Position numbers and translations under genes: made by a program. A model generated the notes under the pieces. That model was not told the DNA's origin. It saw only the letters and a list, made by a program, of their open reading frames with translations, and ran no database searches. Positions 29,064-53,007 of a DNA stretch of 53,007 bases are shown here, piece by piece (positions within the stretch are counted from its first letter, which is position 1; every line of letters begins with the position of its first letter). The stretch is from Flavobacteriales bacterium. GTDB lineage: Bacteria; Bacteroidota; Bacteroidia; UBA10329. The stretch covers positions 1-53,007 of the forward strand of contig JAIPBM010000031.1 of NCBI GenBank assembly GCA_021739695.1, in the 5' to 3' direction.

Positions 29064-29065
29064 CA

Positions 29066-29512: not shown

Positions 29513-29513
29513 G

Positions 29514-30017
29514 TTAGAGTTCTCCGCAGTCATCGATCATGATCGGTGCCGATGTAGCGCCAGAACGAGAACCATACGTTTCTATCTTATCCACTACCTC
29601 CATTCCTTCAATAACGCTACCGAAAACCACATGCGCGCCATCCAACCAAGGACAATCTACCGTAGTGATGAAAAACTGCGAACCGTTCGTATTTCTTCCT
29701 GCATTGGCCATGCTCAATAGACCTTTGCCCTGATGTTTCAATTCGAAATTCTCATCGGCAAACTTCTCTCCGTAAATCGACTTCCCTCCTGTTCCATTAT
29801 GGTTGGTGAAATCTCCTCCTTGAAGCATGAACTGAGGAATAACGCGGTGAAACGAACTTCCTTTATATCCGAATCCTTTTTCGCCTGTGCACAAGGCACG
29901 GAAATTTTCGGCTGTTTTCGGCACCACATCAGCACGCAGTTCAAATACAATTCTGCCAGCAGGTTGCTGATTGATACTCACATCAAAAAATACCTTTGGA
30001 TTCTTCATTTCGTTCAT
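29514..30017 (-). CDS. Cyclophilin-type peptidyl-prolyl isomerase
   Basis: This 167-aa protein carries the canonical cyclophilin core: [20 protein letters not shown], then [57 protein letters not shown] and [12 protein letters not shown]. The catalytic Arg and the active-site Phe, Gln and Trp positions are retained. No signal peptide is visible, so it is cytoplasmic. It accelerates proline isomerisation during folding. It is the first gene of a pair with DinB. Confidence 0.95.
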
Positions 30018-30077
30018 TTCTTCAGATTATCAGCGGCCAAAAATAGAATCAAATCACAGAATAATCCAATCTCATTT

Positions 30078-30851: not shown

Positions 30852-31020
30852 CTTGTTGATTTTCACCCAAGTTCTAAAATTATATCCATCTAACCTTGAA
30901 AAGCTTGCACAAGAAGCGCAATACTAAGTTTGACAAACCGTAATAAGAACCATTGGCCTTATTGTTGCGGTTACAGAGATTCAGATATCACTTATTTTAG
31001 CAGAAATTAAAACCGTCACT

Positions 31021-31584
31021 ATGAAATATTTTCTCACAGCACTTTTAGCCGTTTCAATGGCATTGCCAACACAAGCTCAACTATCCATCAATGGGGTCAC
31101 ACTACCTGCAAGTATCAAAGCAGGAAGCGTTAATGTCAACCTCAATGGCGGTGGAATTAGAAAGAAGGTATTCTTCAAACTATATGTCGGTGGCCTTTAT
31201 CTGAGCGATAAATCTTCTGACGCTTCAGCCATCGTAAATGCAGACAAACCAATGGCGGTTAAACTGCAAATAACTTCAGGAATGATAAGCAGTGAAAACA
31301 TGAGCGAAGCCATTCTGGAAGGTTTTGAAAACAGCACTGGAGGTAAAACGGAGCCTTTGAAAGCAAAGATCACGGAGTTCGTCAATACCTTTAAGAAGGA
31401 AGAAATTGTGGAAGGAAACGTGTTTGATATTGTTTACGTGCCTGGAAAAGGAGTTGAGTCTTACAAGAACGGTAAGCTGCAAGGAACCGTTGAAGGCCTC
31501 GATTTTAAGAAAGCATTGTTCGGAATCTGGTTAGGTGCAAAACCTGCGGATGAAGACCTTAAAACAGCCATGTTAGGCAAGTAA
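31021..31584 (+). CDS. Chalcone-isomerase-like secreted protein
   Basis: A 187-aa protein with signal peptide KYFLTALLAVSMALPTQAQ. The mature part (LSINGVTLPASI; RKKVFFKLYVGGLYLS; MISSENMSEAILEGFE; GVESYKNGKLQGTVEG; KKALFGIWLGAKPAD) matches bacterial chalcone-isomerase-like (Chalcone_3) proteins. Bacterial members are thought to bind lipids or fatty acids in the periplasm rather than isomerise chalcone. It is expressed divergently from the head-GIN gene. The next gene is lysA, about 60 bp downstream. Confidence 0.88.
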   Translation: MKYFLTALLAVSMALPTQAQLSINGVTLPASIKAGSVNVNLNGGGIRKKVFFKLYVGGLYLSDKSSDASAIVNADKPMAVKLQITSGMISSENMSEAILEGFENSTGGKTEPLKAKITEFVNTFKKEEIVEGNVFDIVYVPGKGVESYKNGKLQGTVEGLDFKKALFGIWLGAKPADEDLKTAMLGK

Positions 31585-31617
31585 ACCGAAATTTTCCAGT
31601 AGTACATTTCTTGCTAT

Positions 31618-31633
31618 GACCGAGTTATCGGTC
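31618..31633. promoter_or_regulatory. Palindrome in front of lysA
   Basis: GACCGA-GTTA-TCGGTC is a perfect 6-bp inverted repeat with a 4-base centre, ending 13 bases before the lysA start. It could be an operator or a weak hairpin in the leader. No regulator is identified. Confidence 0.3.
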
Positions 31634-31646
31634 GCAAAATCCACTT

Positions 31647-32870
31647 ATGAAACCAGAACAATTATTGAGTTTGACCGAGGAATTCGGAACCCCGTTGTTT
31701 GTATATGATGCCGACAAAATGGAATCACAATACAAGCGATTGATCAACGCTTTCTCGGGAATCCGTGTCAATGTTCAGTATGCCTGCAAAGCACTCAGCA
31801 ATCAAGCAGTACTTCAACATTTCAATGCCTTAGGTGCTGGTTTGGATACAGTCTCAATTGAGGAAGTGCAATTGGGACTTCGTGCTGGCTTTACTCCTGA
31901 CAGAATCATCTACACTCCTAACGGAGTAAGCTTTGAAGAGATCAAACAAGCAGTTTCGTTTGGCGTAAAAGTGAACATCGACAATCTGGTGATGCTCGAA
32001 AAATTCGGGAACGAATACGGTAGTTCCTATCCCGTTTGTGTTCGCATCAATCCACATATTGTGGCTGGAGGAAATCACAAGATCCAAGTTGGGCACATCG
32101 ATTCCAAGTTCGGTATTTCAATTCATCAAATGCGGCATTTGACACGCATCGTTGACGCTTACAAGTTGCATGTGAACGGATTGCACATGCACACTGGTAG
32201 CGACATTTTGGATGTTGGCGTATTCCTGAAAGGTTCTGAATTATTATTGGAAGCTGCATTGCATTTCAAAGAATTGGAATACGTAGATTTTGGAAGCGGT
32301 TTTAAAGTGGCTTACAAGCCAAGCGATGTTTCTACGAACATTGAAGAACTTGGCGAGCAACTTTCTGAACAGTTCAAAGAGTTTTGTAAAGAGTATGGAA
32401 GAGACCTCGAACTTGCCTTTGAACCAGGCAAATTTCTCGTAAGCGAATCAGGCACTTTTTTGTGTAAAGTGAACGTGATAAAGCAGACCACTGCGACCGT
32501 TTTTGCCGGTGTTGATACGGGTTTCAACCACTTTATCCGCCCGATGTTCTACGATTCATATCACCACATTACCAATGTCAGCAATCCCGATGGACCGGAA
32601 AGGATTTACACCGTAGTTGGCTACATCTGCGAAACGGATACGTTTGCTTGGGACCGAAAGATCAACGAAATAAACGAAGGCGACATTCTAGCGTTTCAAA
32701 ATGCAGGGGCGTACGTGTTTGCGATGAGCAGCAACTACAACTCGCGGTTGAAGCCTGCCGAAGTTTTACTTGTTGATGGTAAACCATATCTTGTATCTCG
32801 AAGACAGACGCTCGATGACCTTTTGGTCAATCAAGTAGATGTTGGCCATCTTTTTAAAAGTAAAAAATGA
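31647..32870 (+). CDS. Diaminopimelate decarboxylase
   Basis: This 407-aa PLP enzyme makes L-lysine from meso-diaminopimelate. The PLP lysine sits in VQYACKALSNQAVL. HMHTGSDI, DFGSGFKVAYKPSD and FEPGKFLVSESGTFLC are the expected conserved loops. The C-terminal active-site loop is present as GYICETDTFAWDR, with the DAP-binding CETD motif. The start MKPEQLLSLTEEFGTPLFVYD is typical for LysA. The downstream gene overlaps by ATGA. Confidence 0.95.
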   Translation: MKPEQLLSLTEEFGTPLFVYDADKMESQYKRLINAFSGIRVNVQYACKALSNQAVLQHFNALGAGLDTVSIEEVQLGLRAGFTPDRIIYTPNGVSFEEIKQAVSFGVKVNIDNLVMLEKFGNEYGSSYPVCVRINPHIVAGGNHKIQVGHIDSKFGISIHQMRHLTRIVDAYKLHVNGLHMHTGSDILDVGVFLKGSELLLEAALHFKELEYVDFGSGFKVAYKPSDVSTNIEELGEQLSEQFKEFCKEYGRDLELAFEPGKFLVSESGTFLCKVNVIKQTTATVFAGVDTGFNHFIRPMFYDSYHHITNVSNPDGPERIYTVVGYICETDTFAWDRKINEINEGDILAFQNAGAYVFAMSSNYNSRLKPAEVLLVDGKPYLVSRRQTLDDLLVNQVDVGHLFKSKK

Positions 32871-33379
32871 AAAACGCATTCCTTTTGTTATTCATATCCA
32901 TTTGGTCAAACGCATCATTTGCCCAAAACCTTACCGTGTTCAAAGACGCAGCGAATAAGTTTGAGATCGGAGTTCCTTCTGATTGGAAACGGGGAGTTCC
33001 TGGAAACAGCACGGTTGAATTTCTTGCTGTGAGACAAGGAACAAGTGAACTTGACGTGACACGTGAAATAATGAGCGTCAACATCCTTCATTGGACAGAA
33101 ACAGATCTAGATGCCGCCTTCAAAAAGTATCTTGAAGAGGTCGGGAAAAGTCAGGATTTCAAAATTCTGAAGGAATCTGACAGAACAATCGGAGGAAGGA
33201 AGTACAAATCACTTTTAGAATCGCATAAAAACACGGCCACCGGACTTGAAATGACGCATAGCGTGTTGTTCAGCAATGACAACGGAACCGTTTTGATCCT
33301 TACCATGGAAACAACGTCTGCGAATTATGACGAGTTCAAAAACCTGTTCTCGCGAATCGCATCGAGCTTGAAATTTTGA
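32867..33379 (+). CDS. Secreted PsbP/DUF1795-like protein
   Basis: A 170-aa protein with signal peptide KNAFLLLFISIWSNASFAQ. The mature region (FKDAANKFEIGVPSDWKRGV; LKFE-like ends; SVLFSNDNGTVLILTMETTS; FSRIASSLKF) resembles the beta/alpha fold of the PsbP-like and DUF1795 families. Small proteins of this shape are common in Bacteroidota and of unknown role. It overlaps lysA by 4 bp and a terminator lies about 55 bp downstream. Confidence 0.7.
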   Translation: MKNAFLLLFISIWSNASFAQNLTVFKDAANKFEIGVPSDWKRGVPGNSTVEFLAVRQGTSELDVTREIMSVNILHWTETDLDAAFKKYLEEVGKSQDFKILKESDRTIGGRKYKSLLESHKNTATGLEMTHSVLFSNDNGTVLILTMETTSANYDEFKNLFSRIASSLKF

Positions 33380-33435
33380 TTCGTGCCAATTAAAGGCACA
33401 AACCGATCATCTTCATTTCAAACTTTTTATAAACG

Positions 33436-33468: not shown

Positions 33469-33471
33469 GAG

Positions 33472-33513
33472 TAGCGAGAGGGAGATTTGAACTCCCGACC
33501 TCAGGGTTATGAA
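33472..33513 (-). other. attL: 3' end of tRNA-Met(CAU)
   Basis: Read on the minus strand, the stretch contains an anticodon loop TTCATAA, the 3' anticodon strand CCCTG, a variable loop, and the T-arm GGGAG-TTCAAAT-CTCCC. The acceptor 3' strand TCTCGCT and discriminator A follow. This is the 3' half of an elongator tRNA-Met. Immediately beyond the anticodon loop (towards 33530) the tRNA sequence stops: the expected 5' anticodon strand CAGGG is replaced by an imperfect TAGGA, and no D-arm or acceptor strand follows. This is the signature of an integrated element whose attachment site lies in the tRNA; the reconstituted tRNA should be at the far junction outside the window. Confidence 0.85.
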
Positions 33514-33596
33514 TCCTAATTTATTGATATCATATGGATCCATGTGATTCAATAATCCCAGTTTGAAGGGGGATTGTGAAAAAATAAAGCCAGATG

Positions 33597-33637
33597 ATGT
33601 TGTACCAAATCGGGAAATGTTGTACCTATGTTGTACC
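33597..33637 (+). repeat. Three ATGTTGTACC direct repeats upstream of integrase
   Basis: Copies at 33597-33606, 33617-33626 and 33628-33637 are identical 10-mers on the same strand, spaced 20 and 11 bp start to start. They lie 15-56 bp before the integrase ATG (33653) and about 80 bp from the tRNA fragment. Their position suits arm-type sites for the integrase N-terminal domain, or an autoregulatory operator. Their presence argues for the short integrase start rather than the longer frame from 33563, which would make the repeats coding. Confidence 0.75.
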
Positions 33638-33652
33638 CAAACGATCCGCATC

Positions 33653-34864
33653 ATGGCATCAGTCAAAGCAGTACTCAGAAAGAAAGAGAGTAAAAAGGAT
33701 GGCACCTACCCGCTTGCAATCCGTATTACCAAAGATAGGAAAAGCTCATTCATCCACCTCGGATACCAACTTCGCCTCGATCAGTGGGATGAAGTCACCT
33801 GTCAAGTAAAGAAGCACACGAACGCAGCACGGCTCAATAACCTCATCGCGCACAAAGTAGCGGAGTTAAGTGGGCAAGCCATTGACGACCAAACGAAGCG
33901 TAAGCGAACAACCGCCAAGGCGATCAAAGAAACCGTTGAGGGAACAGGGAGGGGTTCATCCTTCTTCCGCTACGCAGAGGAAGACTACCTCAAGAACCTC
34001 CGAGACTTAGGGAGCTTCAACAGGTATGTTGCAGAGAAACCACGTATTGCCCATTTCAGAGAGTTCTTGGACGGGGCAGACATTGCCTTTCAAGACATCA
34101 CCATTCCACTCCTTCGGAGATTCAGCGCGTACCTCAAACGCACTCGGAACATTAAAGACCGAACGATCATCAATCATCTCATCATCATACGAACCATCTT
34201 CAATCAAGCAATTCAAGCTGGATTCGTAACTGCTGAACACTATCCGTTCGGTAAACACGGGATTCAAATCAAGTTCCCTGATTCAGTGAAAATCGGCCTC
34301 ACACCAGAAGAAGTACAACTGCTGGAAGAAGCCACCCTCCCTCCTATTCAAGACCACGCTCGGAACGTCTGGCTTATCTCTTTCTACTTCGCTGGTATGC
34401 GTGTGTCTGATGTCCTTCGCCTCAAATGGTCAGATTTCCAAGATGGCCGATTGTATTACAAGATGGGGAAGAATGATAAGGTGGGGTCATTCAAGGTATC
34501 ACCCAAAGCCCAACGAATACTTGATGCATACAGTGATGGGGAACACCTTCACAATCTCGTCTTTCCTGATCTGCAAGTCGTAAAGGACCTGAATGAGAAG
34601 TACATGGTTCAAAAGAAAACCTCCGAGGCAGTGAGTAGGCTCAACAAGCAACTCAAGAAAATCACTCCAGAGATTGGCATTGAAAAGAAGGTCAGCATGC
34701 ACATCGCCCGACACACCTTCGGCAATATCTCAGGGGATAAAATTCCCGTACAGATGCTTCAAAAACTGTATCGACACTCCAACATCACCACCACGGTGAA
34801 CTACCAATCGAACTTCATCTTCAAGGATACCGATGAAGCATTGGAGAAGGTGATCGGGGGATAA
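33653..34864 (+). CDS. Tyrosine integrase of the element
   Basis: A 403-aa tyrosine recombinase for site-specific integration and excision. The N-terminal arm-binding domain (SVKAVLRKKESKKDGTYPLA) is followed by a SAM-like core-binding domain. The catalytic domain has the first Arg in FAGMRVSDVLRLKW (R250), HIARH (H350, R353), YRHSNITTT (H375) and nucleophile Y384 in VNYQSN. All five key positions are present. The gene sits next to the tRNA-Met remnant and reads away from it, the usual layout of Bacteroidota genomic islands. The internal ATG at 33653 is preferred over the longer frame. Confidence 0.93.
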   Translation: MASVKAVLRKKESKKDGTYPLAIRITKDRKSSFIHLGYQLRLDQWDEVTCQVKKHTNAARLNNLIAHKVAELSGQAIDDQTKRKRTTAKAIKETVEGTGRGSSFFRYAEEDYLKNLRDLGSFNRYVAEKPRIAHFREFLDGADIAFQDITIPLLRRFSAYLKRTRNIKDRTIINHLIIIRTIFNQAIQAGFVTAEHYPFGKHGIQIKFPDSVKIGLTPEEVQLLEEATLPPIQDHARNVWLISFYFAGMRVSDVLRLKWSDFQDGRLYYKMGKNDKVGSFKVSPKAQRILDAYSDGEHLHNLVFPDLQVVKDLNEKYMVQKKTSEAVSRLNKQLKKITPEIGIEKKVSMHIARHTFGNISGDKIPVQMLQKLYRHSNITTTVNYQSNFIFKDTDEALEKVIGG

Positions 34865-34900
34865 TCCTTCCGCTTGTTTGTGCTCTTCTACGAGCGGGCT

Positions 34901-39197: not shown

Positions 39198-40646
39198 ATG
39201 GACAACATCTTACTTTCATTCTCCCCGAATTTCTTTCATGTAATCGTAATATTTATCGCGGTGGCCGTTATCGTTCGCCTCTTAGGAAATGAAGAACGTA
39301 AACAGGACTATGATGATGAATTTGGAGATGCGTCGTCGTTAATTTCAAGATGGAACAAAGGCTTCTGGATTGGTGAAGGTCGCATCACAAGAGAGCAATC
39401 CTTCAAACATACAGTCCTCATTGGTCAAAGCGGAGGAGGGAAAACCTCGGCTGGACTCATACCAACCGCCTTAGGGATGGACGATTGTTCGCTCATCTTC
39501 TTGGATCCGGCAAAGGAACTCTTCAAGCGAACGGCAGGTCATTTGCGGAGCAAGGGATATAGAATCAAAGTGCTTGACCTCAAGAAGCCAGACCGTTCCA
39601 TCGGATTCAACCCACTCCAACGAGCAACGACCAGCACTGACTTGAACATTTTGGCTGAAATGGTGGTAGCACCTCAATCACGTCAAAGTAAGGATATATT
39701 TTGGCCTCAAATGGCGGCTCGACTACTCGTTGTATTCTTCAAAATTCAGAAGCAGTTACCACAAGAGTTTCAGAATCTCGCCAACACCCGCCACCTTGCC
39801 AACCTCTTGCAGGGTGACCCAAAGAAGATGGATAAGCTGTATGCCACCTTCGCTGATGATACCCTTTTCGGAGAATATAAAGCCATTATCAGTCAGGACG
39901 ACAAACTACTATCAAACGTGCTCGCAACAGTCCAGAGTAGTCTTCGCATTTTCGATGATTCTGCGGTCGCAAGATGCACGTCTGCGGACACATTGGACCT
40001 CCAAAAGTTCCGAAAGGAAAAGACTGCCCTGTATATCTGGACGGATATCATGGACGCCTCCTACTATTCCTTCCTACTGGAAATATGGTTCACACAGCTT
40101 TTTCGAGACTTCATGAAATCTATTCCTGATAAAGGGAAGCTGGATGTGTTCATCCTTGCGGATGAGATGGGGTCACTCACTATCAAGGGATTTGCAGAGG
40201 CGCTTGCCAACCTTCGCAAGTACAGAGTTGGAATCATGTACGCCATCCAATCACGGGCACAGCTCATTGAACGCTATGGACGACATGACGCGGATACTCT
40301 TTTGGCAAATTCATGGGGCAAGCTCATTTTCCCCGGCATGGAAACAGATCTTGCTCAAGAACTAGAAAAACGTCTTGGTCGATGGACGTTTGAGCGGGAG
40401 GACGGCCATCGGGGAACCAGAGAGCTAATGACAATTTCGGAATTGACCCACATGAAAGAGGGCACAGCAATGTACACGGCTGGGGCGAATCGCCCCATGA
40501 AAGTGACGGTTACCCCCTACTTCAAGGACTGGTCGTTAAAGTCAAAAAGTGAAATGCCCCTCCCGAAAATTTCAGGAGGCATTCCTAATGAGCTGACTTT
40601 TATAGATGTCGATGCTCTCGTAAGGAGCAAGAAGGAACATGTCTAA
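39198..40646 (+). CDS. VirD4/TraG-like type IV coupling protein
   Basis: A 482-aa ATPase that connects the relaxosome to a type IV secretion channel. One N-terminal membrane helix (FFHVIVIFIAVAVIVRLL) precedes the ATPase. Walker A is GQSGGGKTS at residues 76-84, followed by LIFLDPAKELFKRTAG. Walker B is VFILADEMGSL with D322/E323, and a TraM-recognition-like C-terminal region follows. The protein is short compared with full TraG (about 600 or more), as in mobilizable elements. It overlaps mobC by 8 bp. Confidence 0.9.
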   Translation: MDNILLSFSPNFFHVIVIFIAVAVIVRLLGNEERKQDYDDEFGDASSLISRWNKGFWIGEGRITREQSFKHTVLIGQSGGGKTSAGLIPTALGMDDCSLIFLDPAKELFKRTAGHLRSKGYRIKVLDLKKPDRSIGFNPLQRATTSTDLNILAEMVVAPQSRQSKDIFWPQMAARLLVVFFKIQKQLPQEFQNLANTRHLANLLQGDPKKMDKLYATFADDTLFGEYKAIISQDDKLLSNVLATVQSSLRIFDDSAVARCTSADTLDLQKFRKEKTALYIWTDIMDASYYSFLLEIWFTQLFRDFMKSIPDKGKLDVFILADEMGSLTIKGFAEALANLRKYRVGIMYAIQSRAQLIERYGRHDADTLLANSWGKLIFPGMETDLAQELEKRLGRWTFEREDGHRGTRELMTISELTHMKEGTAMYTAGANRPMKVTVTPYFKDWSLKSKSEMPLPKISGGIPNELTFIDVDALVRSKKEHV

Positions 40647-41127
40647 AGATTCTGGACATAGAGAAAAAGCGACTGAACGCAAAAAGCGATTCCGAGATAG
40701 GAACCGCACCTTCACCTTGAGCTTACCGAAGAAAGAGGCCCAAGGACTGGAAAAACACGCAATCAAGAAGGGATATAAGGTTCCTGACTATCTCAAAGCC
40801 ATCATCTACGTTGACATGCATGGAACAGGATACGTCATGCCATCAGATAATCGGCTACAAGAACTTTCTCTCGCGATACGAAGGATTGGGAACAACGCTA
40901 ACCAACTTACCCGCTATGCTCACCACGAGAAGGGTATCACCATGGAGGAAGTGAAACAGTTTCAATCCTTGCTCCTACGATTGGAAAGTGAAATCCGAGA
41001 AGCAATAACGCACCCTGCCAACATCCTTGATCTGCTTCGCAACCATCTGCAGACACGACCTCAGGACAGAAATTTGCTGATACAATATCTCTATGATCAT
41101 CAAGATTCTCCCCGTCAAGACTTATAA
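40639..41127 (+). CDS. MobC-like mobilization protein
   Basis: A 162-aa basic protein with a ribbon-helix-helix-like N-terminus (RDRNRTFTLSLPKKEAQGLE). LAIRRIGNNANQLTRYAH is the conserved MobC signature. MobC opens oriT DNA for the relaxase and forms part of the relaxosome. It overlaps the coupling-protein gene by 8 bp and the relaxase gene by 35 bp, which points to tight translational coupling. Confidence 0.88.
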   Translation: MSKDSGHREKATERKKRFRDRNRTFTLSLPKKEAQGLEKHAIKKGYKVPDYLKAIIYVDMHGTGYVMPSDNRLQELSLAIRRIGNNANQLTRYAHHEKGITMEEVKQFQSLLLRLESEIREAITHPANILDLLRNHLQTRPQDRNLLIQYLYDHQDSPRQDL

Positions 41128-41938
41128 CGCGGTGGCGAATGTCGTTGCCTACATCGCAACTGACAAAGGCCGCATAGAAGACCATCATAGGCAGGGAATT
41201 TTTCATAATCTCAACCGCACCGATCTTGATGGGATAACTCAGGAGTTGCGGACCAACTATGCTGACTTTGCCCGAAAAAGGAAAGGGGGAAACAAGGCTC
41301 GACATGTCATCCTATCAGTCAATCCTTTGGATAGAGACAAGATGACTGTGGAGATTATGGACGACCTCGTTCATACCTACATCCAAAAAACGTTTCCCAA
41401 CGCTATCGTATTCGGTACCCACCATCAATCTGAACAGCATTGGCACACTCACCTTGTTGTGAGTGCCAATGAACTCATGAGTAAAGAAGCAACGCGACTT
41501 TCCAAAGAACAACTCAAAACGATTCACATGGAAATGCTCCGGTACATGCGAGAGCAGCATCCTTCTCTTACCATTGGCATCAATGAACAAGCATGGGGCA
41601 AGAAGGAATTCAGCGAACGCGCCTACTACAAGCAAAAGCGGAATCCTGAACTGAAGCTCACACGCGAAGAACTCACGGAGCGGGTGCAAGGCATTTTCCG
41701 CATATCGGAAAACTCAGGGCACTTCTATGAGAATCTGCGAAAAGAAGGGCTCACCACCTATGACCTGAAAGGCAAGGTGCAGGGCATCCTATGGGACAGC
41801 GAGGGGAAAAAGATGAGGTTTGCGAGACTCGGTCTTGACCCTATGGCAGTCCAAGAACTGGACGCTCAAAGTGAACGGCTCAATCAGCTTGACCGCATTA
41901 GAGATATGGCGCGTCCGGCATCTGGTCTTGAGCGATGA
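41093..41938 (+). CDS. MOBP-type relaxase (MobA/VirD2-like)
   Basis: This 281-aa relaxase nicks oriT and carries the strand into the recipient. Y11 or Y20 near the N-terminus (LPVKTYNAVANVVAYIATDK) is the likely nucleophile. The metal-binding three-His motif is HWHTHLVVSAN (H116, H118, H120). The C-terminal part is basic. The protein lacks the long helicase or primase extensions seen in larger relaxases. It is the last gene of the mob operon; a convergent small gene ends 2 bp away. Confidence 0.9.
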   Translation: MIIKILPVKTYNAVANVVAYIATDKGRIEDHHRQGIFHNLNRTDLDGITQELRTNYADFARKRKGGNKARHVILSVNPLDRDKMTVEIMDDLVHTYIQKTFPNAIVFGTHHQSEQHWHTHLVVSANELMSKEATRLSKEQLKTIHMEMLRYMREQHPSLTIGINEQAWGKKEFSERAYYKQKRNPELKLTREELTERVQGIFRISENSGHFYENLRKEGLTTYDLKGKVQGILWDSEGKKMRFARLGLDPMAVQELDAQSERLNQLDRIRDMARPASGLER

Positions 41939-42266: not shown

Positions 42267-42317
42267 GTTCCTTGATTTTTATCGTGCGTTCAGTCCACGA
42301 AGGTACGATAGAGAGGT

Positions 42318-42389
42318 GCAGGATTCTTCCTGCCAAGATCGCCTTGTGAAAGAGAATCGCCCTAGCGTTCCAGTCACAAGGCTATCTTG
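42318..42389. repeat. Nested inverted repeats between divergent genes
   Basis: CAAGATCGCCTTGTGA (42334-42349) and TCACAAGGCTATCTTG (42374-42389) are 16-bp arms with one mismatch, separated by 24 bases. A second hairpin, GCAGGA-TTCT-TCCTGC, lies just outside at 42318-42333. Together they span most of the 150-bp gap. Possible roles are an oriT-like site next to the relaxase gene, a regulator site for the divergent promoters, or a structured leader. No T-run follows, so an intrinsic terminator is less likely. Confidence 0.6.
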
Positions 42390-42495
42390 CACTGCACTGA
42401 CCTCACATCCTTCAATTGAGCGACATACCCAAATCAGTTCGTCCGAAGATTGAAACGAAAGTTTGTACATTTCCCGACTTAACCATCAAAGCTAG

Positions 42496-42524
42496 TTGCT
42501 CGGCATGCAATTTATATACATTTG
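42496..42524 (+). promoter_or_regulatory. Bacteroidota-type promoter for the radical-SAM operon
   Basis: TACATTTG at 42517-42524 matches TAnnTTTG, and a TTG at 42496-42498 sits 18 bases upstream as a partial -33 element. A transcript would begin around 42531-42534, leaving a short leader before the ATG at 42557. This favours that start over the upstream TTG at 42416. Confidence 0.45.
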
Positions 42525-42556
42525 ATTCAGAAGCAACTGATGTTTACTACTATAAT

Positions 42557-43717
42557 ATGGAACGTTCGCAAGAAGCTACCTTACCGTCCTCGAAACTAGT
42601 TCGCGACAATACCGAGTTACTTGTCAGACGACTAGTCATCAGAAGCAGATTGGCTGGGGAAAAGGAAGAATTCCTTTTGGAGAGACACCTAATTGAGTAC
42701 AAAAATGGCAAGCCTATACGAGCTATCATTGGTATTCCAACTACAGGCTGCAATTATGCACGGTTAAACGGCGCATGTAGCATGTGTGGACATCCTGATA
42801 GTGGACTCTGGGACATAAATCTCACTGATGATACTATAATAGAGTTATTTCAATCAAGTATTGAGAAAATCCGTCCAATGAAACCGAATTCGCTTGGCGT
42901 GTATTGTTCCGGTTCTTTTTTTGATGACAACGAGGTGTCGGTAAAACTTAAGCAGAGGATATGTAAATCTATTGCTGATGAAGCTTGGATTGAAGAGGTT
43001 GTAGTTGAAAGTCTACCGCAGTATATCACAAAACCAAAAATAGAAGCCGTCCAGCGCATGCTTGGTTCGATAAGGCTAAAGATTGGCATTAGTCTCGAAA
43101 CCGCAAATCAATTCATTCGATCCTCAGTCTTATTAAAGAAGGTACCTAGTCTTAGTTACATAAAAGCGACTGAAGCGTGTGGTGAATTGAAAAATGTATA
43201 CAGCATTGCTTATGCTGTCATTAAGCCTCCATTCTTAACTGAAGGTGAAGCAATATGGGAAGGAGCTGAGACTATTCATTCCGCTGTCATGATGAAGTTT
43301 GACGAAATCTCTTTAGAGCCCTTATCTCTTCAATCAGGAACATTACAAAGTTTGTTGGAAAAACAGGGACATTATGATATGTCTTCCATTTGGACTTTGG
43401 TAAATATTCTAAAACTATGGCAGAGTAAGTATCCATCTGATTTGAACTCAATAACTATAAAAATCGGTGGTGAGGTTTATACTCCACTTCCCTACAAGAC
43501 CTTTTTAAGGTGTAGCACCTGTGAGAATAAAGCATTTAAAGAGTTAGAAAAAATTGGTGTGGAAATAGACTTGCCACGTATTTCCATTGACAATCCGGAT
43601 GGACAGTGCGATACTCAATGTTGCACATACATTGAGCCAAATCCATTAGAAATTAGAGAGCCAAATCCTAGTGCAGTAACTCAACGAGTAATTAAGATAA
43701 TTAACCTTATTAACTAG
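42557..43717 (+). CDS. Radical-SAM protein with CX8CX2C cluster (RaSEA-like)
   Basis: A protein of about 386 aa. C65, C74 and C77 (GCNYARLNGACSMCGH) form a CX8CX2C iron-sulfur motif resembling the archaeosine-synthase (RaSEA) and Elp3-like branch of radical SAM enzymes. A TIM-barrel-like order follows (LGVYCSGSFFDDNE; EVVVESLPQYI; LKIGISLETAN; EEISLEPLSL-like end). A C-terminal cluster (RCSTCENK; GQCDTQCC) may hold a second metal site. A TTG at 42416 would add 47 residues including another CxxC. True substrate is unknown; it is the first gene of the four-gene operon. Confidence 0.85.
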   Translation: MERSQEATLPSSKLVRDNTELLVRRLVIRSRLAGEKEEFLLERHLIEYKNGKPIRAIIGIPTTGCNYARLNGACSMCGHPDSGLWDINLTDDTIIELFQSSIEKIRPMKPNSLGVYCSGSFFDDNEVSVKLKQRICKSIADEAWIEEVVVESLPQYITKPKIEAVQRMLGSIRLKIGISLETANQFIRSSVLLKKVPSLSYIKATEACGELKNVYSIAYAVIKPPFLTEGEAIWEGAETIHSAVMMKFDEISLEPLSLQSGTLQSLLEKQGHYDMSSIWTLVNILKLWQSKYPSDLNSITIKIGGEVYTPLPYKTFLRCSTCENKAFKELEKIGVEIDLPRISIDNPDGQCDTQCCTYIEPNPLEIREPNPSAVTQRVIKIINLIN

Positions 43718-43724
43718 TGGTATC

Positions 43725-45098
43725 ATGGAATTCTGGAACATCATAATAGCTGTGGGGATACTTCTTCTCCTTTCACTCTCAGGTCTTTTTGTTAAATCTA
43801 AAGATTTCAGTCTGAGCTTCTTATTGGGTGAGCGAAGTCTAAGCTGGAAGGACATTGCGTTCTCAATGGCGGCCGGAGTTGTTGGGGGTGGAATTCTCTT
43901 AACCTACTCGGCCTATGCATACCAATATGGTATATCTGCTTATTTCATTTTTATCGGAATAGCCTTGGGAGTTCTTATGTTACTTTGGGTAACAAAAAAG
44001 TATAAGAAACTAATCGATGAACAAGAATTAATCACACTACCCGAGTTATTTCGCCATCTGTATGGCGTCCGTGCAAGCAAGCTTAGTTCATACATTGTCC
44101 TAGGTTGGTCTTTTGGATTTATTTGTATGCAATTGGTCGCTGCTGGCGTTCTGCTTGAAGGCATGATTGGTTTACCATATTGGCTTTGTATTGTCTTTGC
44201 TGCGGGTCTGGTCTTGTTGTACTTACTTAAGAACGGTTTTGCTGCGGTAGTAAAGACGGACTTTATTCAGCTAGTGGCACTTTTAATCTTCTTTACGCTT
44301 CTTACAGCTAGTGTGTTAGTCTCATCTTCAGCACGCGAGGCAATCACAACCCTTTCCTTTGAATCAATGAAGATTGAAGAAATCATTGGGTTTGTTTTGC
44401 TTGGAATGCTGAACATCATAGTATCTGCTGATTTGTGGCAACGCATATATGCAGCAAAGTCCACGGGCGCTGCAAATAAAGGCATCATTGTAGCTTTTGT
44501 ATTGGTTTTGTTCGCTGGCCTTGTATTGATAACTCCAACTTTAATGATTAAGACTTTGGGAGTTGAAATTGATCCAAACATGGCACTCATGGGAGGGATA
44601 AAGTCAATAATTGGGCATTCCGCCCTCTTAGGAGTAGCATTTGCCGCTGTTCTTAGTGCTGTCATTTCGGCTCTTGACACGATGATATTTGTTGCTGGAG
44701 TGTCATTATCTAACGACATTAGTATCCGTTTGATGGGAGGCCCAATCTCTGATCGAGTTAAAGGCACCAAGTTTTGGATGGTTGTAGTTACCATTGTTGC
44801 CTGTGTTTTGTCTGTTCAGTTCAGAAGTTTGCTAGATATAGGTCTTGCTATATCTAGCTTGGGACTGTCTCTGGTCCCGGCCGTCATTATGGGTCTGTTC
44901 ATCAAGGATGGGAAAATCAAAAGGAGCGCAACAGTTGTGTACAGCTTGCGATTCGGATTGATTGGCTTTTTCGGCCTAATAGTATCTAGCTTGGTGTTTG
45001 ACGGAGATATATTGACCCCTGTTAATTCTTTGGTCACCTTGCCTTGTTCAATTGTGGGAGCGGTTTACGGTCACTTCTATGGGCGTGAGAATGAATAA
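43725..45098 (+). CDS. Sodium:solute symporter (SSS family)
   Basis: This 457-aa protein has about thirteen membrane helices. SFLLGERSLSWKDIAFSMAA and GVVGGGILLTYSAYAYQYG match the first helices of SSS transporters (LeuT fold). LGWSFGFICMQLVAAGVLLE and FAAVLSAVISALDTMIFVAG are the later conserved helices, the second with a possible sodium-binding Ser/Asp pair. SSS proteins import solutes such as sugars, amino acids, pantothenate or choline with sodium. The substrate is unknown, and the operon context suggests a precursor or product for the UbiA and cyclase-like proteins. Confidence 0.85.
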   Translation: MEFWNIIIAVGILLLLSLSGLFVKSKDFSLSFLLGERSLSWKDIAFSMAAGVVGGGILLTYSAYAYQYGISAYFIFIGIALGVLMLLWVTKKYKKLIDEQELITLPELFRHLYGVRASKLSSYIVLGWSFGFICMQLVAAGVLLEGMIGLPYWLCIVFAAGLVLLYLLKNGFAAVVKTDFIQLVALLIFFTLLTASVLVSSSAREAITTLSFESMKIEEIIGFVLLGMLNIIVSADLWQRIYAAKSTGAANKGIIVAFVLVLFAGLVLITPTLMIKTLGVEIDPNMALMGGIKSIIGHSALLGVAFAAVLSAVISALDTMIFVAGVSLSNDISIRLMGGPISDRVKGTKFWMVVVTIVACVLSVQFRSLLDIGLAISSLGLSLVPAVIMGLFIKDGKIKRSATVVYSLRFGLIGFFGLIVSSLVFDGDILTPVNSLVTLPCSIVGAVYGHFYGRENE

Positions 45099-45109
45099 TT
45101 CTTTGATTA

Positions 45110-45991
45110 ATGAAGTACCTGAGGTTTGCGCGTCCGCTTTACTGGCTTCCGACTATATCCAGTTCAATCAGTGGCTGGTTGTCAACAAATCCAACCTTTG
45201 ACTGGTCATTAGTTGTTCTGCTTGTAGTTATGGTTGGGCCTGGGCTTTCCGGTTTTGCTGAAGCTTTTAATGGCCTGCAAGATGAAGACTTCGACCGAGA
45301 ATCAAAACAGTACAAGTTTTTCGGAATTAGTTTAGCTGGAGGGACTGGGCAACTGTCAAAACGAGAAATTTTACGTAATAATGCGGCTTGGTTCATATTG
45401 GTTCTCACGGGCACGTCAATACTTATCTCATTATATTTTGGGGCATGTACAACCCTACTATGCTTAACTGCACTATCTGTTGGCTATCTGTATTCCAGTT
45501 CAACTGTTAAACTAAACAGGTCAGAGTGGTTCAGACAGGCATTACTTTTTCTTGGATACGGACCAATTGCCTTTTTTATCGGAGTGTCAACTGGAATCTC
45601 AGATTGGAATTATCTATCACATGATCAGGTTTTCTTTTCAGTAATGTCTGGTGTAATGGTTGTTTCAGTTGGAGTAACTTCCGATGTGCTAGATTATACA
45701 GATAACATAAAGTCAGGCAAACGAAACATTGTAACGCTCTATGGTCCGAAAATGTCGCTGACGGTATCCACTATAATAAGCTGGCTAGTGTTGGCTATAA
45801 CATTCGCCTATTCTGAAGCTAAAGTCAATCTCCATCAAAGAGAGGTAGTTCTTCTATTGATTGTCTTCCTGATGTTTGTAAGAACAAAATTACTTATGAA
45901 CTTTCAAAATCCTCCTGTGATTATCAGATCTCATTTGATTTCTATAGGGATAGAGATTCTATTTCCATTTGTAATGGTTTTCAATGCATAG
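45110..45991 (+). CDS. UbiA-family prenyltransferase or terpene cyclase
   Basis: A 293-aa membrane protein with about eight helices. NGLQDEDFD at residues 54-62 is the first Asp-rich motif (NxxxDxxxD). DVLDYTDNIKSGKRN at 192-206 is the second (DxxDxxDxxxGKR). These bind the magnesium-diphosphate of a prenyl substrate. UbiA enzymes prenylate aromatic rings, sugars or heme; some are terpene cyclases. The neighbouring cyclase-like toroid protein overlaps by 8 bp, so both probably act on a prenyl compound. Confidence 0.85.
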   Translation: MKYLRFARPLYWLPTISSSISGWLSTNPTFDWSLVVLLVVMVGPGLSGFAEAFNGLQDEDFDRESKQYKFFGISLAGGTGQLSKREILRNNAAWFILVLTGTSILISLYFGACTTLLCLTALSVGYLYSSSTVKLNRSEWFRQALLFLGYGPIAFFIGVSTGISDWNYLSHDQVFFSVMSGVMVVSVGVTSDVLDYTDNIKSGKRNIVTLYGPKMSLTVSTIISWLVLAITFAYSEAKVNLHQREVVLLLIVFLMFVRTKLLMNFQNPPVIIRSHLISIGIEILFPFVMVFNA

Positions 45992-48614
45992 GCCCCTCAT
46001 AGATACGACTAAAAGCATTTTGATAAATAAATGGAGACGCTTGACAAGGCAAGCCACATTTTGCTTAACCACTAGCATCGCTTCGGTTGTTAAAACCGTT
46101 CTCCTGCCAATCTGGTGGTTACTGGAGAGGGTACTACCATGGTTGTATCAGAAAGCAAATGCTTCATCTAACTTCATCCTAATGACTATTGGCCAATTGC
46201 GGAAAAGGTTAGTTGGTCAATCACTGCAAACCAAGAATAAAATTTTCCTGCTTAGAAAGTTTACTCTTGGATTATGTTTTCCGTTATTATTTGCTTTCTA
46301 TGCTTTAAGATATTTCAATACAAAACTGGATTTGGGACTTCAAAATTTTATTTTGGTTCCAACATACTTTTTTCTATCCGACAAGATATTTAGCAAATTT
46401 AGACTGTTCATAGAACGATACAGTTACCTTGCGCCCAACTCTCTGGTTAGGGCCGTAAATAAGGATCATACTCTGCGTGAGATGAGTGTATACTTCCTAG
46501 GATTATTGCTTCCTTACTTGATTATTTCTGCTTTGTTTTGTTTTAATTTTTATTTCGAGCTGAAACCTTCAAGTTTAAAAATAATCGAAAAGACTATCAC
46601 AATTTGGTATTTTCTTGGAAGCGCCGCTCTTTTTGTTTCTGTCATTTCACCAATCGGAGATTTAAAAGAGTCATCAAATGGATATAATTCTGAAAAGCGC
46701 ATGTTCTTAGGAATTCCAAGTGCTCGATTAATGCTTACCACACACAATGCTGCACTAACTATGCTAATTGAAGAGTTGGTCGCCACTTTACTGTTCATAT
46801 ATTTTTCCACTGCTTTGGGGATGTATATTTCTCAAGGGGCAGGTACCGAAGGTTTCTTCTTCATCGAAGCTGAACTGACAAATTCCCTTGGAACCGATTT
46901 CTTGGATTATAAATGGCTATTGTACTTTCTATATCAGGCCACCACAATTATTTCCTCACAAGGGTTTTCGGGTGTTACTCCAGTTGGGGGGCAAGCGTTA
47001 GCTTATGTAGTGGTTTCGATTATTCTCTGTGGCATGTACATTATTGGACTCATTTCTCCTATATTCGGCATGGTTTCAAGCTCTAATAAGCGCAACTCCG
47101 AGAAGTACTTAAACAATACTTTAGTATCGAAGGTGTTGGCCGATTCAATAAGTCAGTTGTCCGCTCAAAGGACATCAAAGGGATTTTGGTCAGGCATCAA
47201 TAAAAGCTGTGCTGTAAGTTCAGCTTGCTGTGCCATTGCTTTAAAGCGCGGTGGCTTAGTGGACAAGTCATTTGAAATATACCAATCTAGAGAAGAACAC
47301 TCACACAATGGTACTATAACTCTATCCAATGGGTTATGGGATATTTACTCAGCATCGGATATCTCATGGGAGACATACTCTCACCATCTGGACGCGAACG
47401 AATATTTTCTTCTACTTTGTTTTGGCGCATCTCTGGGGTATCCTGTAATTAAGGAACTTGAAACAGTGAATGGATCAAGTGCGAATTGGGATGAAGGGGA
47501 TGGTGTCCATTGGGGATCGTATGGTCACATAGCATTTTCTTTGTGCAATTCTCAAAAGGAGGACCAAGCATCAGTCTGTGACATTTTACGTCGTCGGCAA
47601 TCTGCATCTGGTAGTTTTTATGGGGATACGGTCCTTACTTCTTTGGTCGTGTGTTTTTTTACGTACTCGTCATTGGCAGGTTCTCTTTTGCAGGATGCGT
47701 TGCAGTGGTTAGCTTCTTCTGAGAATGAACCCATGCAGCGTCCTTTTGATTCGGTTTGCATTTGGGATACTGCCTTTAGTTTGGTGACATTAAGAAGATA
47801 TGGCTACAACTATAGTGATTTGAAACTGAGCTTCGAATGGCTTGTCGGAAAGTACGAAGAGCGCTACGCTGGATGGTCATGGTCCACTGAGTCGAAGGGC
47901 ATAAAATGTCTGGATACCACAACAGCCGTTTTAGAGGCATTGGATGGGAACGATTATTTGGATTGGACTCTTAATCAAATGCAAAATCAAGCTTTGGATG
48001 AAATCAACAGCCTGCCACCAACAGCCGAATCTAACACCTTTCAAGACGACTATGGTTATCACGCGTACTGTCCTATCATCCATTCACGGATTCTATGGCT
48101 TCAGCGTACTTCAAGCGCCACTAGCGCGGGATGGAACAAGGTTGAGGCTTTTCTCGGCAGTGGCAATACAGTAGTAAGCCCCTGGTTTAAGGATAGGCAT
48201 ATTACAACTGGCCTAGGATTGTACTATGCATCTAAATCTATTGTCAAACCGACTAAAGGAATGATAAAAATTCATTCGCAATTGATAACTGACATGTCTA
48301 AGGGACGAATTCAATCGCCTGAAGGCAAATTATCAGCATTACTTGGAGTTGTTTCGGTCAGACGCAACTGGGGCATAAACGAAGTAGAAGGTTATGGACG
48401 AGGAAGTAAGGAATTTCCAAAATGGTTAGGAACTATCACAGATCTTTTAGAAGATGTGATACGTAAAAGCTATGATAATAGCAACAACAAATGGATTCCT
48501 AGTTCAGTAGGCTATTTTGGCCATGGTGTTTACTATACCAATGAAGTGTTCATAACCAACTTGGCGTGCATGGCCCTTATGGAGCTGACCGAGTATTTTG
48601 GATCGAGTCGATAA
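45984..48614 (+). CDS. Channel-like membrane segment fused to terpene-cyclase-like toroid
   Basis: An 876-aa protein in two halves. Residues about 85-375 contain about seven membrane helices. Within them, YQATTIISSQGFSGVTPVGG (about 317-336) followed by a long hydrophobic helix recalls the pore loop and inner helix of two-TM potassium channels, but GFSG stands where GYGD is usual. Residues about 400-860 are all-alpha, with WDTAFSLVTLRRYG (W594), GWSW (630-633) and CLDTTTAVLEAL (C642-D644-T645). These match repeats of class II terpene cyclases and prenyltransferases, with CLDT where DxDD is usual, so the central Asp is kept and the outer Asp is Cys. No named family fits the fusion. Confidence 0.75.
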   Translation: MHRPLIDTTKSILINKWRRLTRQATFCLTTSIASVVKTVLLPIWWLLERVLPWLYQKANASSNFILMTIGQLRKRLVGQSLQTKNKIFLLRKFTLGLCFPLLFAFYALRYFNTKLDLGLQNFILVPTYFFLSDKIFSKFRLFIERYSYLAPNSLVRAVNKDHTLREMSVYFLGLLLPYLIISALFCFNFYFELKPSSLKIIEKTITIWYFLGSAALFVSVISPIGDLKESSNGYNSEKRMFLGIPSARLMLTTHNAALTMLIEELVATLLFIYFSTALGMYISQGAGTEGFFFIEAELTNSLGTDFLDYKWLLYFLYQATTIISSQGFSGVTPVGGQALAYVVVSIILCGMYIIGLISPIFGMVSSSNKRNSEKYLNNTLVSKVLADSISQLSAQRTSKGFWSGINKSCAVSSACCAIALKRGGLVDKSFEIYQSREEHSHNGTITLSNGLWDIYSASDISWETYSHHLDANEYFLLLCFGASLGYPVIKELETVNGSSANWDEGDGVHWGSYGHIAFSLCNSQKEDQASVCDILRRRQSASGSFYGDTVLTSLVVCFFTYSSLAGSLLQDALQWLASSENEPMQRPFDSVCIWDTAFSLVTLRRYGYNYSDLKLSFEWLVGKYEERYAGWSWSTESKGIKCLDTTTAVLEALDGNDYLDWTLNQMQNQALDEINSLPPTAESNTFQDDYGYHAYCPIIHSRILWLQRTSSATSAGWNKVEAFLGSGNTVVSPWFKDRHITTGLGLYYASKSIVKPTKGMIKIHSQLITDMSKGRIQSPEGKLSALLGVVSVRRNWGINEVEGYGRGSKEFPKWLGTITDLLEDVIRKSYDNSNNKWIPSSVGYFGHGVYYTNEVFITNLACMALMELTEYFGSSR

Positions 48615-48673
48615 TGTAGTTAAATTATTACTCATTCTTCGCAAATTGTCTCCCGACAAAGTTGGTAGTCTAA

Positions 48674-49078
48674 TTACCATCTCAACCGAAAATATGAGGC
48701 AGCCGCTTGAGATCTCTTATCGGAAACTCGTTGAGTGATTTGAGATTCCCAATATGAAGCATTTTTAGAGGTCACATCAAGATTACAACCACATGTTGGG
48801 CATGATTGAGATTGCCAACCTTGTGCAATTCCTTCCTTGCACACTTCGCAGATTACCTGAATATCTACAACGATCCATGCACGTTTACTTTTTAGCCACT
48901 TCCAGTTCCACTGAAGCATGTGACCATCAATTCTGTCTTGTCGATAATTCCAATAAAAAGGTTTCGCAAAATAGGTCACGTACAGATAGAAGGAAAAAAA
49001 CACAATCCCACAGGATCCCACAATAATCAGAAACCCTCCAACAACGATGGGGTCTATTGACTGTTGAATGGAGCTCAT
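48674..49078 (-). CDS. Membrane protein with zinc-ribbon-like domain
   Basis: A 134-aa protein with one N-terminal membrane helix (VGGFLIIVGSCGIVFFSFYL). A cytoplasmic tail follows that contains CEVCKEG and CPTCGCN, which can form a four-cysteine zinc site. A C-terminal charged helix (SDKRSQAAASYFRLRW) ends it. No family is recognised. It converges with the four-gene operon, whose stop is 59 bp away, and could be a separate small regulator or membrane adaptor. Confidence 0.6.
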   Translation of the reverse strand: MSSIQQSIDPIVVGGFLIIVGSCGIVFFSFYLYVTYFAKPFYWNYRQDRIDGHMLQWNWKWLKSKRAWIVVDIQVICEVCKEGIAQGWQSQSCPTCGCNLDVTSKNASYWESQITQRVSDKRSQAAASYFRLRW

Positions 49079-49289
49079 TTTTTAGGCGGGTTATTGTGCG
49101 CCAAATGTAGAGATTACTCTAGGGTGATTCAACTGTGGTCCTCCCGTGGTGCAAACGTGACGGTCAGAGCAATCGCATATTCATTATTTACCATAGCAGT
49201 AGAGATAGGGTTGGGGAGTACAATGTAAAAAGAAAAACTCTAGACGAACAACCCGTCTCAAGGATCACCCATGTCCAAAATCACAACAA

Positions 49290-49317
49290 AAAAGCTCTTA
49301 TTTTCAGAAGAGCTTTT
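49290..49317 (-). terminator. Intrinsic terminator of the gene at 49330
   Basis: AAAAGCTCTT and AAGAGCTTTT form a 10-bp stem with an 8-base loop; on the minus strand it is followed by a TTTTTT run that continues from the stem. It lies 13 bp after the stop of the 49330-49692 gene. The 49079-49289 gap next to it holds no convincing gene. Confidence 0.85.
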
Positions 49318-49329
49318 GAATCCGATTGA

Positions 49330-49692
49330 CTAGATACCCAATTCGTCAGCAAGCATTCGAGCTGTTTCTTCGAATGAGAACCAAGCGAACCAGTTCTTCA
49401 TGTCACCTTGAACGACAGGTGCCACTCCTGTAGCTTCGAAATTTTCAAGCCGCAATTCTTCGATTTCATCATAATGCTCATCGAAGAAGCTGTGGGTGTC
49501 CACGTAGTAGATGAGAGAATTCACTATGCCGCTCACGCAACCGTGCGAAAGAAGATTTCGGAAAAAGGAAAGTGGTTCACCGCCACTGTATTCAAGTGCC
49601 GCTTCGGCAACTTTTGCTCGGATGGTACCTCGCTCATTTTCCATGATGTCCGTTAGTCTGCTGGTAAGAGGTGTGTGATTTTTTGTGTCCAT
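49330..49692 (-). CDS. Acidic small protein, DUF7222-like
   Basis: A 120-aa soluble, acidic protein. FFDEHYDEIEELRLENFEAT and MKNWFAWFSFEETARMLADE are reminiscent of short acidic proteins found on Bacteroidota mobile elements (DUF7222-like). The LLSHGCVSGIVNSLIYYVDT segment is the likely conserved core. Acidic DNA-mimic functions such as anti-restriction have been proposed for comparable proteins, but nothing here proves it. A terminator follows. Confidence 0.7.
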   Translation of the reverse strand: MDTKNHTPLTSRLTDIMENERGTIRAKVAEAALEYSGGEPLSFFRNLLSHGCVSGIVNSLIYYVDTHSFFDEHYDEIEELRLENFEATGVAPVVQGDMKNWFAWFSFEETARMLADELGI

Positions 49693-51628: not shown

Positions 51629-51749
51629 AGGGTATTGACAAATATTCAATACTGTGATATAAACCTTATCCGACCTGTGGATAAAGGACAGGTTGCATTC
51701 TACCTATGAAATGCTACACTATTATCAACCTAAATAAGACCATAATATA

Positions 51750-51817
51750 CTCGTTGCCCCTTATGGGGTCATCTCGAACGTAGTTCGAGGTCGGAAGCAA
51801 CAACGAGGCGTTTTTTT
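51750..51817 (+). ncRNA. Three-way-junction hairpin with U-tract
   Basis: An outer stem CTCGTTG / CAACGAG (51750-51756 with 51801-51807) encloses CCCC-TTAT-GGGG (51757-51768) and CTCGAAC-GTA-GTTCGAG (51773-51789). GCG and TTTTTTT (51811-51817) follow at once. It works as a terminator, and the multi-branched form is more elaborate than usual, so it may be the 3' end of a small RNA or leader transcript. Confidence 0.55.
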
Positions 51818-51851
51818 CTTTCACGTCAACTATTTCGTGGAATGTAGAGAA

Positions 51852-51886
51852 GGCCCGTTCAGATTGCTTCCGGACGGGCCCTTTTT
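51852..51886 (+). terminator. Second terminator just before the recombinase gene
   Basis: GGCCCGT and ACGGGCC form a 7-bp stem with a 15-base loop, then CTTTTT. It lies only 4 bases before the recombinase ATG (51891). Placed there it would block read-through unless transcription initiates inside it or is antiterminated, so it may act as an attenuator. Confidence 0.7.
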
Positions 51887-51890
51887 GCTT

Positions 51891-52823
51891 ATGACGTTTC
51901 AAAAATCAGTTGAGCTATATATCAGAAGCCGTTCAAGCCGATTGTCTGCACGGACGGTGAGTACCTATCAAAGTGTTCTGAAGCTGTTCTGTGCGTGGTT
52001 GAAGAACCCAGAACTAAAGACTATTAACGATGACATCTTGGATGAATATCTCGTCCATCTGAAGGGAATCTATCAGGAAAGAACGCGTTGCCTCCATGCT
52101 AACGCGATCCGGGCGTTCCTCAAACACTGGTGTGCAAAGGGAGAAATCACCATGGCGTGGGAACTCATTCAAGGGCCAAGGATCACGGAGACTTTCCCAG
52201 ACTTCATCAGTCACGAGCAATTTGATTTAATAGATGAGACCTTGGATGAGGACGACTACAACCAGCTGACCCGGAAAGTGGTATTTCAAATGCTTTGGAA
52301 CACAGGCATGAGAATATCCGAATTGCTCTCATTGAAAATTTCGGACATCCGCGCTGACCGTAATTACACCTACATCACCACCATGAAAACCAAGAAATTG
52401 AGAATGGTGATGTGGAATAACGAGTGCCATCGACTGCTTATGAAATACATAGGTATCCGCATTTGTATGAACAAGGCGGATCACCTGTTCCAAACGGCAC
52501 CTAGCCAACGAAACGCAGGGGAGCGAACACGGCTCCAACCACGAAGCGTGCAACGCTGGTGTAGAGAACTGCAAAGCTTGCTTGGCTTTCCTATACGACC
52601 TCACGCCTTTCGTCATGGCAAATGCCACGCTATTTTGAACGCTGGTGGAAATCGCCATCAGGTGCAGAGTATCGCAGGACACTCAAGTATCACCTCCAGC
52701 GAGATATATGTTCGGCTGAACCTGCAAGAACAGGGGAACCTACTCCAGCGATTCCTACCGAAGCAAACGAACTCTGAGAAGATTGCGCACAGGGTTGACA
52801 TCTCGTATCCATTTGCGGCCTGA
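51891..52823 (+). CDS. XerC/D-like tyrosine recombinase
   Basis: A 310-aa single-chain recombinase without an arm-binding domain. SAM-like N-domain: MTFQKSVELYIRSRSSRLSA. Catalytic domain: NTGMRISELLSLKISDI (first Arg), TMKTKKLRMV (Lys), HAFRHGKCHAIL (H-x-x-R), AGHSSITSSEIYVRLN (His and nucleophile Tyr). All catalytic positions are present. It is distinct from the integrase at 33653, so the element carries two recombinases. The longer frame from 51837 would run through the terminator hairpin, so ATG 51891 is chosen. Confidence 0.9.
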   Translation: MTFQKSVELYIRSRSSRLSARTVSTYQSVLKLFCAWLKNPELKTINDDILDEYLVHLKGIYQERTRCLHANAIRAFLKHWCAKGEITMAWELIQGPRITETFPDFISHEQFDLIDETLDEDDYNQLTRKVVFQMLWNTGMRISELLSLKISDIRADRNYTYITTMKTKKLRMVMWNNECHRLLMKYIGIRICMNKADHLFQTAPSQRNAGERTRLQPRSVQRWCRELQSLLGFPIRPHAFRHGKCHAILNAGGNRHQVQSIAGHSSITSSEIYVRLNLQEQGNLLQRFLPKQTNSEKIAHRVDISYPFAA

Positions 52824-53007
52824 CCGTAAATGGACTTGCGTCATAGGCACTTTATGGTGTATAGTGATACGGTACTTTGATGAAGAAACGATGTATCGTT
52901 TGGAATAGGAGAAGGCAAGGCATATCATTATTAAAAAGGTCTTATTTAGGTTGACCCGTTCTGATGTGTTCTACAAATTGTTTGTGGAATTTGAATGTCG
53001 CACAATA
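52824..53007. other. Noncoding tail of the window
   Basis: This stretch holds no convincing gene. It is AT-rich at its end, and no attR-like tRNA-Met sequence is present, so the element continues beyond the edge. Confidence 0.6.

Follow-up and report, generated by a model that had tools for sequence, protein, structure and literature searches.

A four-gene operon at positions 42557-48614 of a 53,007-nucleotide stretch of DNA from a Flavobacteriales bacterium (assembly GCA_021739695.1, contig JAIPBM010000031.1; the whole stretch analysed here is referred to as the window) is real, mobile and compositionally unusual, and has been seen once. Its genes encode a radical SAM protein related to RaSEA, the archaeosine radical SAM enzyme, followed by an SSS-family symporter, a UbiA-family membrane prenyltransferase and an orphan membrane protein. 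Sequence comparisons give good support to the view that this operon is horizontally acquired passenger DNA of an integrative mobilizable element. Regarding its function, we tentatively interpret the operon as one horizontally acquired cargo unit that would encode a membrane-centred small-molecule or lipid pathway. It is also conceivable, and we hold this with some reserve, that the operon represents a mobile membrane pathway not described before, with a RaSEA-related enzyme, an importer, a UbiA protein and a new membrane family together making a prenylated compound, or that it is a defence module.

The operon consists of four open reading frames (ORFs) on the forward strand, with spacers of 7 and 11 bp and one 8-bp overlap, exactly as reported in the preliminary description of this locus. 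One-way ORFs of 293 to 876 codons at such spacing are no chance pattern. Gene 1 (42557-43717, +) encodes a RaSEA-like radical SAM protein of 386 amino acids (aa), gene 2 (43725-45098, +) a 457-aa SSS-family sodium:solute symporter with approximately 13 hydrophobic segments in hydropathy analysis, gene 3 (45110-45991, +) a 293-aa UbiA-family membrane prenyltransferase with chlorophyll synthase as its nearest relative, and gene 4 (45984-48614, +) an orphan 876-aa protein with approximately 6 hydrophobic segments within its first ~360 residues and a C-terminal part of ~500 aa. An in-frame TTG at 42416 provides an alternative start for gene 1, giving a longer ORF; since the aligned homologues begin around residue 46-51 of this long version, translation more probably starts at the ATG at 42557.

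The GC content of genes 1-4 (39.2, 42.1, 39.6 and 40.7%) and their GC content at third codon positions (0.35-0.41) contrast with those of the mobilization (mob) genes (45.2-48.7% and 0.47-0.60, respectively), in agreement with the initial impression that the operon is richer in AT than the mob genes. The translational-coupling distances, the single orientation and the uniformly AT-rich composition of the four genes thus support the notion that they constitute one functional unit. A TAnnTTTG-type motif (TACATTTG) is present at 42517-42524 and had been proposed as the promoter of the operon. This motif occurs 22 times in the whole window, compared to 37 occurrences expected by chance, and is rarer than in shuffled sequence; we hence rejected it, as its presence at 42517-42524 provides no evidence of a promoter.

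The borders of the cargo are defined by two features that recur in related elements. On the left, an 85-bp block (42311-42395) contains an inverted repeat with 16-nt arms, 94% complementary, and a 24-nt loop, and folds far better than shuffled sequences (z = -5.06). This block is conserved (75-94%) in four other loci, near relaxase genes (L135 570-654, L171 3729-3811, L172 15777-15858 and L173 16106-16184), three of which share their contig with a relaxase match. Present in five elements from four genomes, it qualifies as the candidate origin of transfer (oriT) of a family of Bacteroidota mobilizable elements. On the right, the cargo is bordered by a gene of the element backbone encoding a DUF7222 protein (49330-49692, -; PF23864, 1.4e-20), possibly with a transfer or antirestriction function. 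Four elements, those of the window, G004, G008 and G000:C6, have a DUF7222 gene after the oriT-like repeat.

In three of the four other loci, the DUF7222 gene or block lies within 98-130 bp of the oriT-like repeat (98 bp in G004, 127-130 bp in the two others); in the fourth, the repeat is followed after ~530 bp by an unrelated ORF. In the window, this pair is split by 6.9 kb in which the operon is accompanied by a single short ORF in convergent orientation (48674-49078, -), encoding a 134-aa protein with a possible zinc ribbon (PF07191, E = 0.016, below the cut-off). The whole 6.9-kb block (42396-49337) is missing from the sibling element of the congener G004, where only 98 bp separate its borders. 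The existence of sibling elements without the operon strongly supports its status as cargo of a mobile element, as had been anticipated. The cargo may have been inserted into a conserved oriT/DUF7222 junction or lost from the other elements, and the odd composition of the operon favours insertion. Such a clean slot beside a candidate oriT is a place to look for further passenger systems.

The element hosting the operon is predicted to be a tRNA-Met-targeted integrative mobilizable element, an assignment based on its integrase, tRNA attachment site, relaxase, oriT-like site and sibling elements. The integrase-proximal attachment site (33471-33517, -; 47 bp) corresponds to the 3' half of a tRNA-Met(CAU) gene. 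It aligns with the equivalent portion of complete tRNA-Met genes in G008 (100% identity) and on contig C10 of the same genome as the window (91% over 54 bp); the window contains no intact tRNA. It is followed by a tyrosine integrase with Arm-DNA-bind_5, Phage_int_SAM_5 and Phage_integrase Pfam domains (33563-34864, +), a VirD4/TraG-type coupling protein-like ORF (39198-40646, +), named by its sequence appearance and syntenic with the sibling in a region where the DNA of both is 72% identical, MobC (40639-41127, +; PF05713) and a MobA/VirD2-type relaxase (41093-41938, +; PF03432).

The sibling element of G004 (contig C16) is flanked at its integrase-proximal end by a copy of this tRNA half-gene and at the other end by an intact tRNA-Met. 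DNA identity between both elements is 90% in the integrase block (33471-34871), 72% in the mob block, 94% in the oriT-like repeat, 86% in the DUF7222 block and 76% in a second recombinase block. The window contig ends within its element, the last block common with the sibling being 51715-53007. At its integrase-proximal end, the window element adjoins ornithine-decarboxylase-like and PsbP genes (left flank, 28000-33380), and that of the sibling adjoins cysE/cysM-like genes; to its left, the intact tRNA-Met of contig C10 has the neighbour that is also found beside the tRNA-Met of the sibling. The genome of the window harbors another related mobilizable element with other cargo (L172; G000:C6:122000-141500), and this stretch encodes a protein with an APH-family phosphotransferase domain.

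Profile searches of each protein, as suggested in the preliminary description, recovered the radical SAM, SSS and UbiA families it had named for genes 1-3 and returned no match for gene 4. Gene 1 matches NCBIfam model TIGR01210 (RaSEA) at 7e-44 with 150.3 bits, below the equivalog cut-off of 212, and yields no match to any Pfam model, including the standard radical SAM model PF04055. Its three-cysteine cluster motif (C112, C121 and C124), present in 98-99% of 82 homologues, nonetheless upholds the radical SAM label, and alignment with these homologues reveals that gene 1 also keeps the KPPF..E motif and the C-terminal cysteines C366, C369 and C398. A pattern-based scan of a species-level genome collection, which may overlook relatives in which the chosen motifs are altered, identified 189 relatives of gene 1. 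The best 80 of these 189 are mostly RaSEA-type proteins from Asgard and euryarchaeal genomes, with 24-33% identity, and their bacterial members come from a Bacteroidetes metagenome-assembled genome (MAG), a Clostridia-like contig (Bacterium D16-36) and Streptomyces filamentosus. Judging from these comparisons, gene 1 encodes a deep, distinct bacterial relative within the RaSEA clade, and not RaSEA.

RaSEA forms archaeosine from preQ0-lysine in tRNA (PMC11298593), and the similarity of gene 1 to TIGR01210 could suggest that it encodes a bacterial archaeosine-type enzyme for RNA or nucleoside modification, with a 7-deazaguanine imported through the SSS protein. We regard this as very improbable, given that gene 1 reaches 150 of the 212 bits of the equivalog cut-off, that the host genome harbors no ArcTGT above the cut-off (ArcS was not searched for), its best TIGR00432 match (117.5 bits versus 350) being an ordinary bacterial Tgt-like protein, and that neither the UbiA protein nor the large membrane protein would have a role in such a process. 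Small-molecule chemistry is favoured by the RaSEA-clade gene of Streptomyces, which is grouped with genes for a P450, a hydroxymethyltransferase and a carbamoyltransferase in a cluster of biosynthetic appearance. The Bacterium D16-36 contig (L092 1555-4011) and the Bacteroidetes MAG (L033 11116-13256) have in common a two-gene module comprising a 407-aa protein without Pfam match and a RaSEA-like radical SAM protein (49% and 54% identity). In the former, the module is preceded by an aldehyde dehydrogenase gene and followed by a Thoeris system.

Relatives of the window element bear different genes. The G004 sibling (L134 2776-12523), which has 98 bp in place of the four-gene operon, has, in another slot, a complete QatABCD system together with a type III restriction-modification pair, and two other related elements harbor genes with a secretion-sorting tail beside the oriT-like repeat, indicating that this element family bears variable and partly defensive cargo. 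The defence cargo of the sibling makes defence the main functional rival of the pathway proposed here: the operon would then encode an undescribed defence or counter-defence module whose response to infection is a change in lipids, nucleotides or the permeability of the membrane. Defence genes are frequent in the hot spots of mobile elements, QatC (a QueC-family protein) and the closest characterised relative of gene 1 are both involved in 7-deazaguanine chemistry (a parallel that is suggestive only), and the RaSEA-like gene on the Clostridia-like contig adjoins a Thoeris system. We nevertheless consider a defence role unlikely. The four proteins match no PADLOC model, the defence genes of the sibling occupy a different slot, the proximity to Thoeris is one case only, and the combination of an importer and a prenyltransferase corresponds to no known defence architecture.

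Genes 2 and 3 both score above the curated cut-offs of their families. Gene 2 matches the SSS model PF00474 (7.7e-22, 78.2 bits; curated cut-off 22.8) over most of its length, and gene 3 matches the UbiA model PF01040 (1.4e-15, 57.7 bits; curated cut-off 34.2), confirming both of the original labels. Gene 3 also shows similarity to PDB entry 9sau_C (E = 5e-4). Its first Asp motif is kept (N54GLQDEDFD, fitting N54-x3-D-x3-D) and its second is altered (D192VLDYTDN), and relatives in the same phylum present only ~20-29% identity.

On these grounds, the chemistry that we infer for the operon as a small-molecule or lipid pathway would proceed as follows. The SSS protein, from its family, would import a polar precursor with sodium. 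The UbiA protein, from its family and the conserved first Asp motif, would use a prenyl diphosphate as donor and attach its prenyl chain to the precursor or to the head group of a lipid. The RaSEA-like enzyme would generate a 5'-deoxyadenosyl radical and, by analogy with its nearest characterised relative, rearrange or cleave a substrate moiety resembling an amine or amidine. More speculatively, the orphan membrane protein encoded by gene 4 might hold, finish, or move or export the prenylated product, which would confer on the host a trait worth mobilising.

Searches of Pfam, NCBIfam, PADLOC, PDB sequences, plasmids, viral contigs and the sampled genomes recovered no homologue of gene 4. This gene had been described from the sequence as a fusion of channel-like and terpene-cyclase-like parts, a proposal for which profile, motif and repeat searches all came back empty, so that no search supports calling it a "channel" or a "terpene cyclase". 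The N-terminal part yielded no Pfam match to an ion channel (Ion_trans_2-like) profile at E up to 10.

The C-terminal half bears directly on the possibility that the operon encodes a bacterial meroterpenoid pathway, in which an imported precursor would be prenylated, cyclised by gene 4 acting as a class II terpene cyclase, and tailored by the radical SAM enzyme. The presence of a UbiA protein and several QW-repeat-like stretches seen by eye in this half (RRRQSASGSFYGDT) are compatible with such a pathway, which we nonetheless deem quite unlikely: gene 4 matches no Pfam or NCBIfam model, the squalene/prenyltransferase models PF00432 and PF13249 return nothing at the locus at E up to 10 and PF13243 likewise has no match in gene 4, a pattern scan detects no DxDD catalytic motif in gene 4, and the C-terminal half gives no signal of internal repeats (self-score 37, compared to 35.8 +/- 4.5 for shuffles). 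Single-sequence AlphaFold models of the whole protein and of its C-terminal half attained pLDDT (predicted local distance difference test) values of 39.0 and 38.5, too low for use. Within the N-terminal part, residues 218-238 (VSVISPIGDLKESSNGYNSEK) and 354-374 (IGLISPIFGMVSSSNKRNSEK) form a weak internal repeat (ISPI...SSN..NSEK), possibly an old duplication, with a score of 49 that is not significant against shuffles (34.8 +/- 5.3, top shuffle 55).

The preliminary description had specified beforehand that failure of the four genes to recur together would count against it, and no co-occurrence was found in any collection searched. Genes 3 and 4 are absent from 8 congeners, and gene 4 from two partly overlapping draws of 395 genomes each (from the class and from the phylum). 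No homologues of genes 2-4 were detected near the gene 1 relatives that were fetched, including the best 80 from the species-level collection. Gene 1 has no match in phages or viral contigs (IMG/VR), and plasmids yielded nothing but a distant Streptomyces radical SAM gene; genes 3 and 4 are found neither in plasmids nor in viral contigs (IMG/VR). Literature searches on this gene combination returned nothing relevant, and the earlier assertion that no described system has this composition stands.

This lack of recurrence, together with the entirely different partners of RaSEA-like enzymes in other bacteria, could indicate that the operon gathers two or more unrelated, adjacent cargo units (for example gene 1, the SSS gene, and the UbiA gene with the orphan) that share no common pathway. 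This explanation seems to us improbable, because gaps of 7 and 11 bp, an 8-bp overlap, one direction and a common composition are hard to reach by random accretion. The absence of recurrence means that a conserved system is not demonstrated, but it is no demonstration of a non-functional operon either.

Returning to the pathway interpretation, several observations weigh against it. The full set was found in a single genome, so the case for co-function comes from one operon, and this operon lacks genes for a prenyl-diphosphate synthase, an acyl carrier or any other protein committed to biosynthesis. Gene 4 has no identified domain in the sequence analyses. Furthermore, gene 1 is changed at 27 positions that are conserved in at least 85% of its family, not counting the start residue, and in a quick RaSEA-family tree its branch is very long (3.97 changes per site) and its position unsupported, so that its chemistry may differ considerably from that of RaSEA.

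If the operon does work as one pathway, it would be the first one known to us to have recruited a radical SAM enzyme of the RaSEA clade alongside a UbiA prenyltransferase, and gene 4 would be the founding member of a new protein family. Compared with known systems, gene 2 has PF00474 in common with SSS transporters such as PutP, PanF and SGLT, and stays below the cut-offs of every substrate-specific profile, TIGR00813 and the PutP and PanF profiles among them. Gene 3 differs from the chlorophyll and bacteriochlorophyll synthases of the UbiA superfamily (BchG, ChlG and BchK) in scoring far below all the BchG/ChlG subfamily cut-offs (55 versus 212 bits), in residing in an operon without pigment genes and in its ~25% identity to homologues of its own phylum, while sharing with them the fold family, the first Asp motif and the length. 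Gene 1 departs from RaSEA in its sub-equivalog score, its altered family-conserved residues and its location in a bacterial operon with membrane partners, in a genome where no ArcTGT was found; with the TIGR01210 proteins of Asgard and euryarchaeal genomes it shares the radical SAM core, the KPPF...E motif, the C-terminal CxxC...C cysteines and ~24-33% of its residues.

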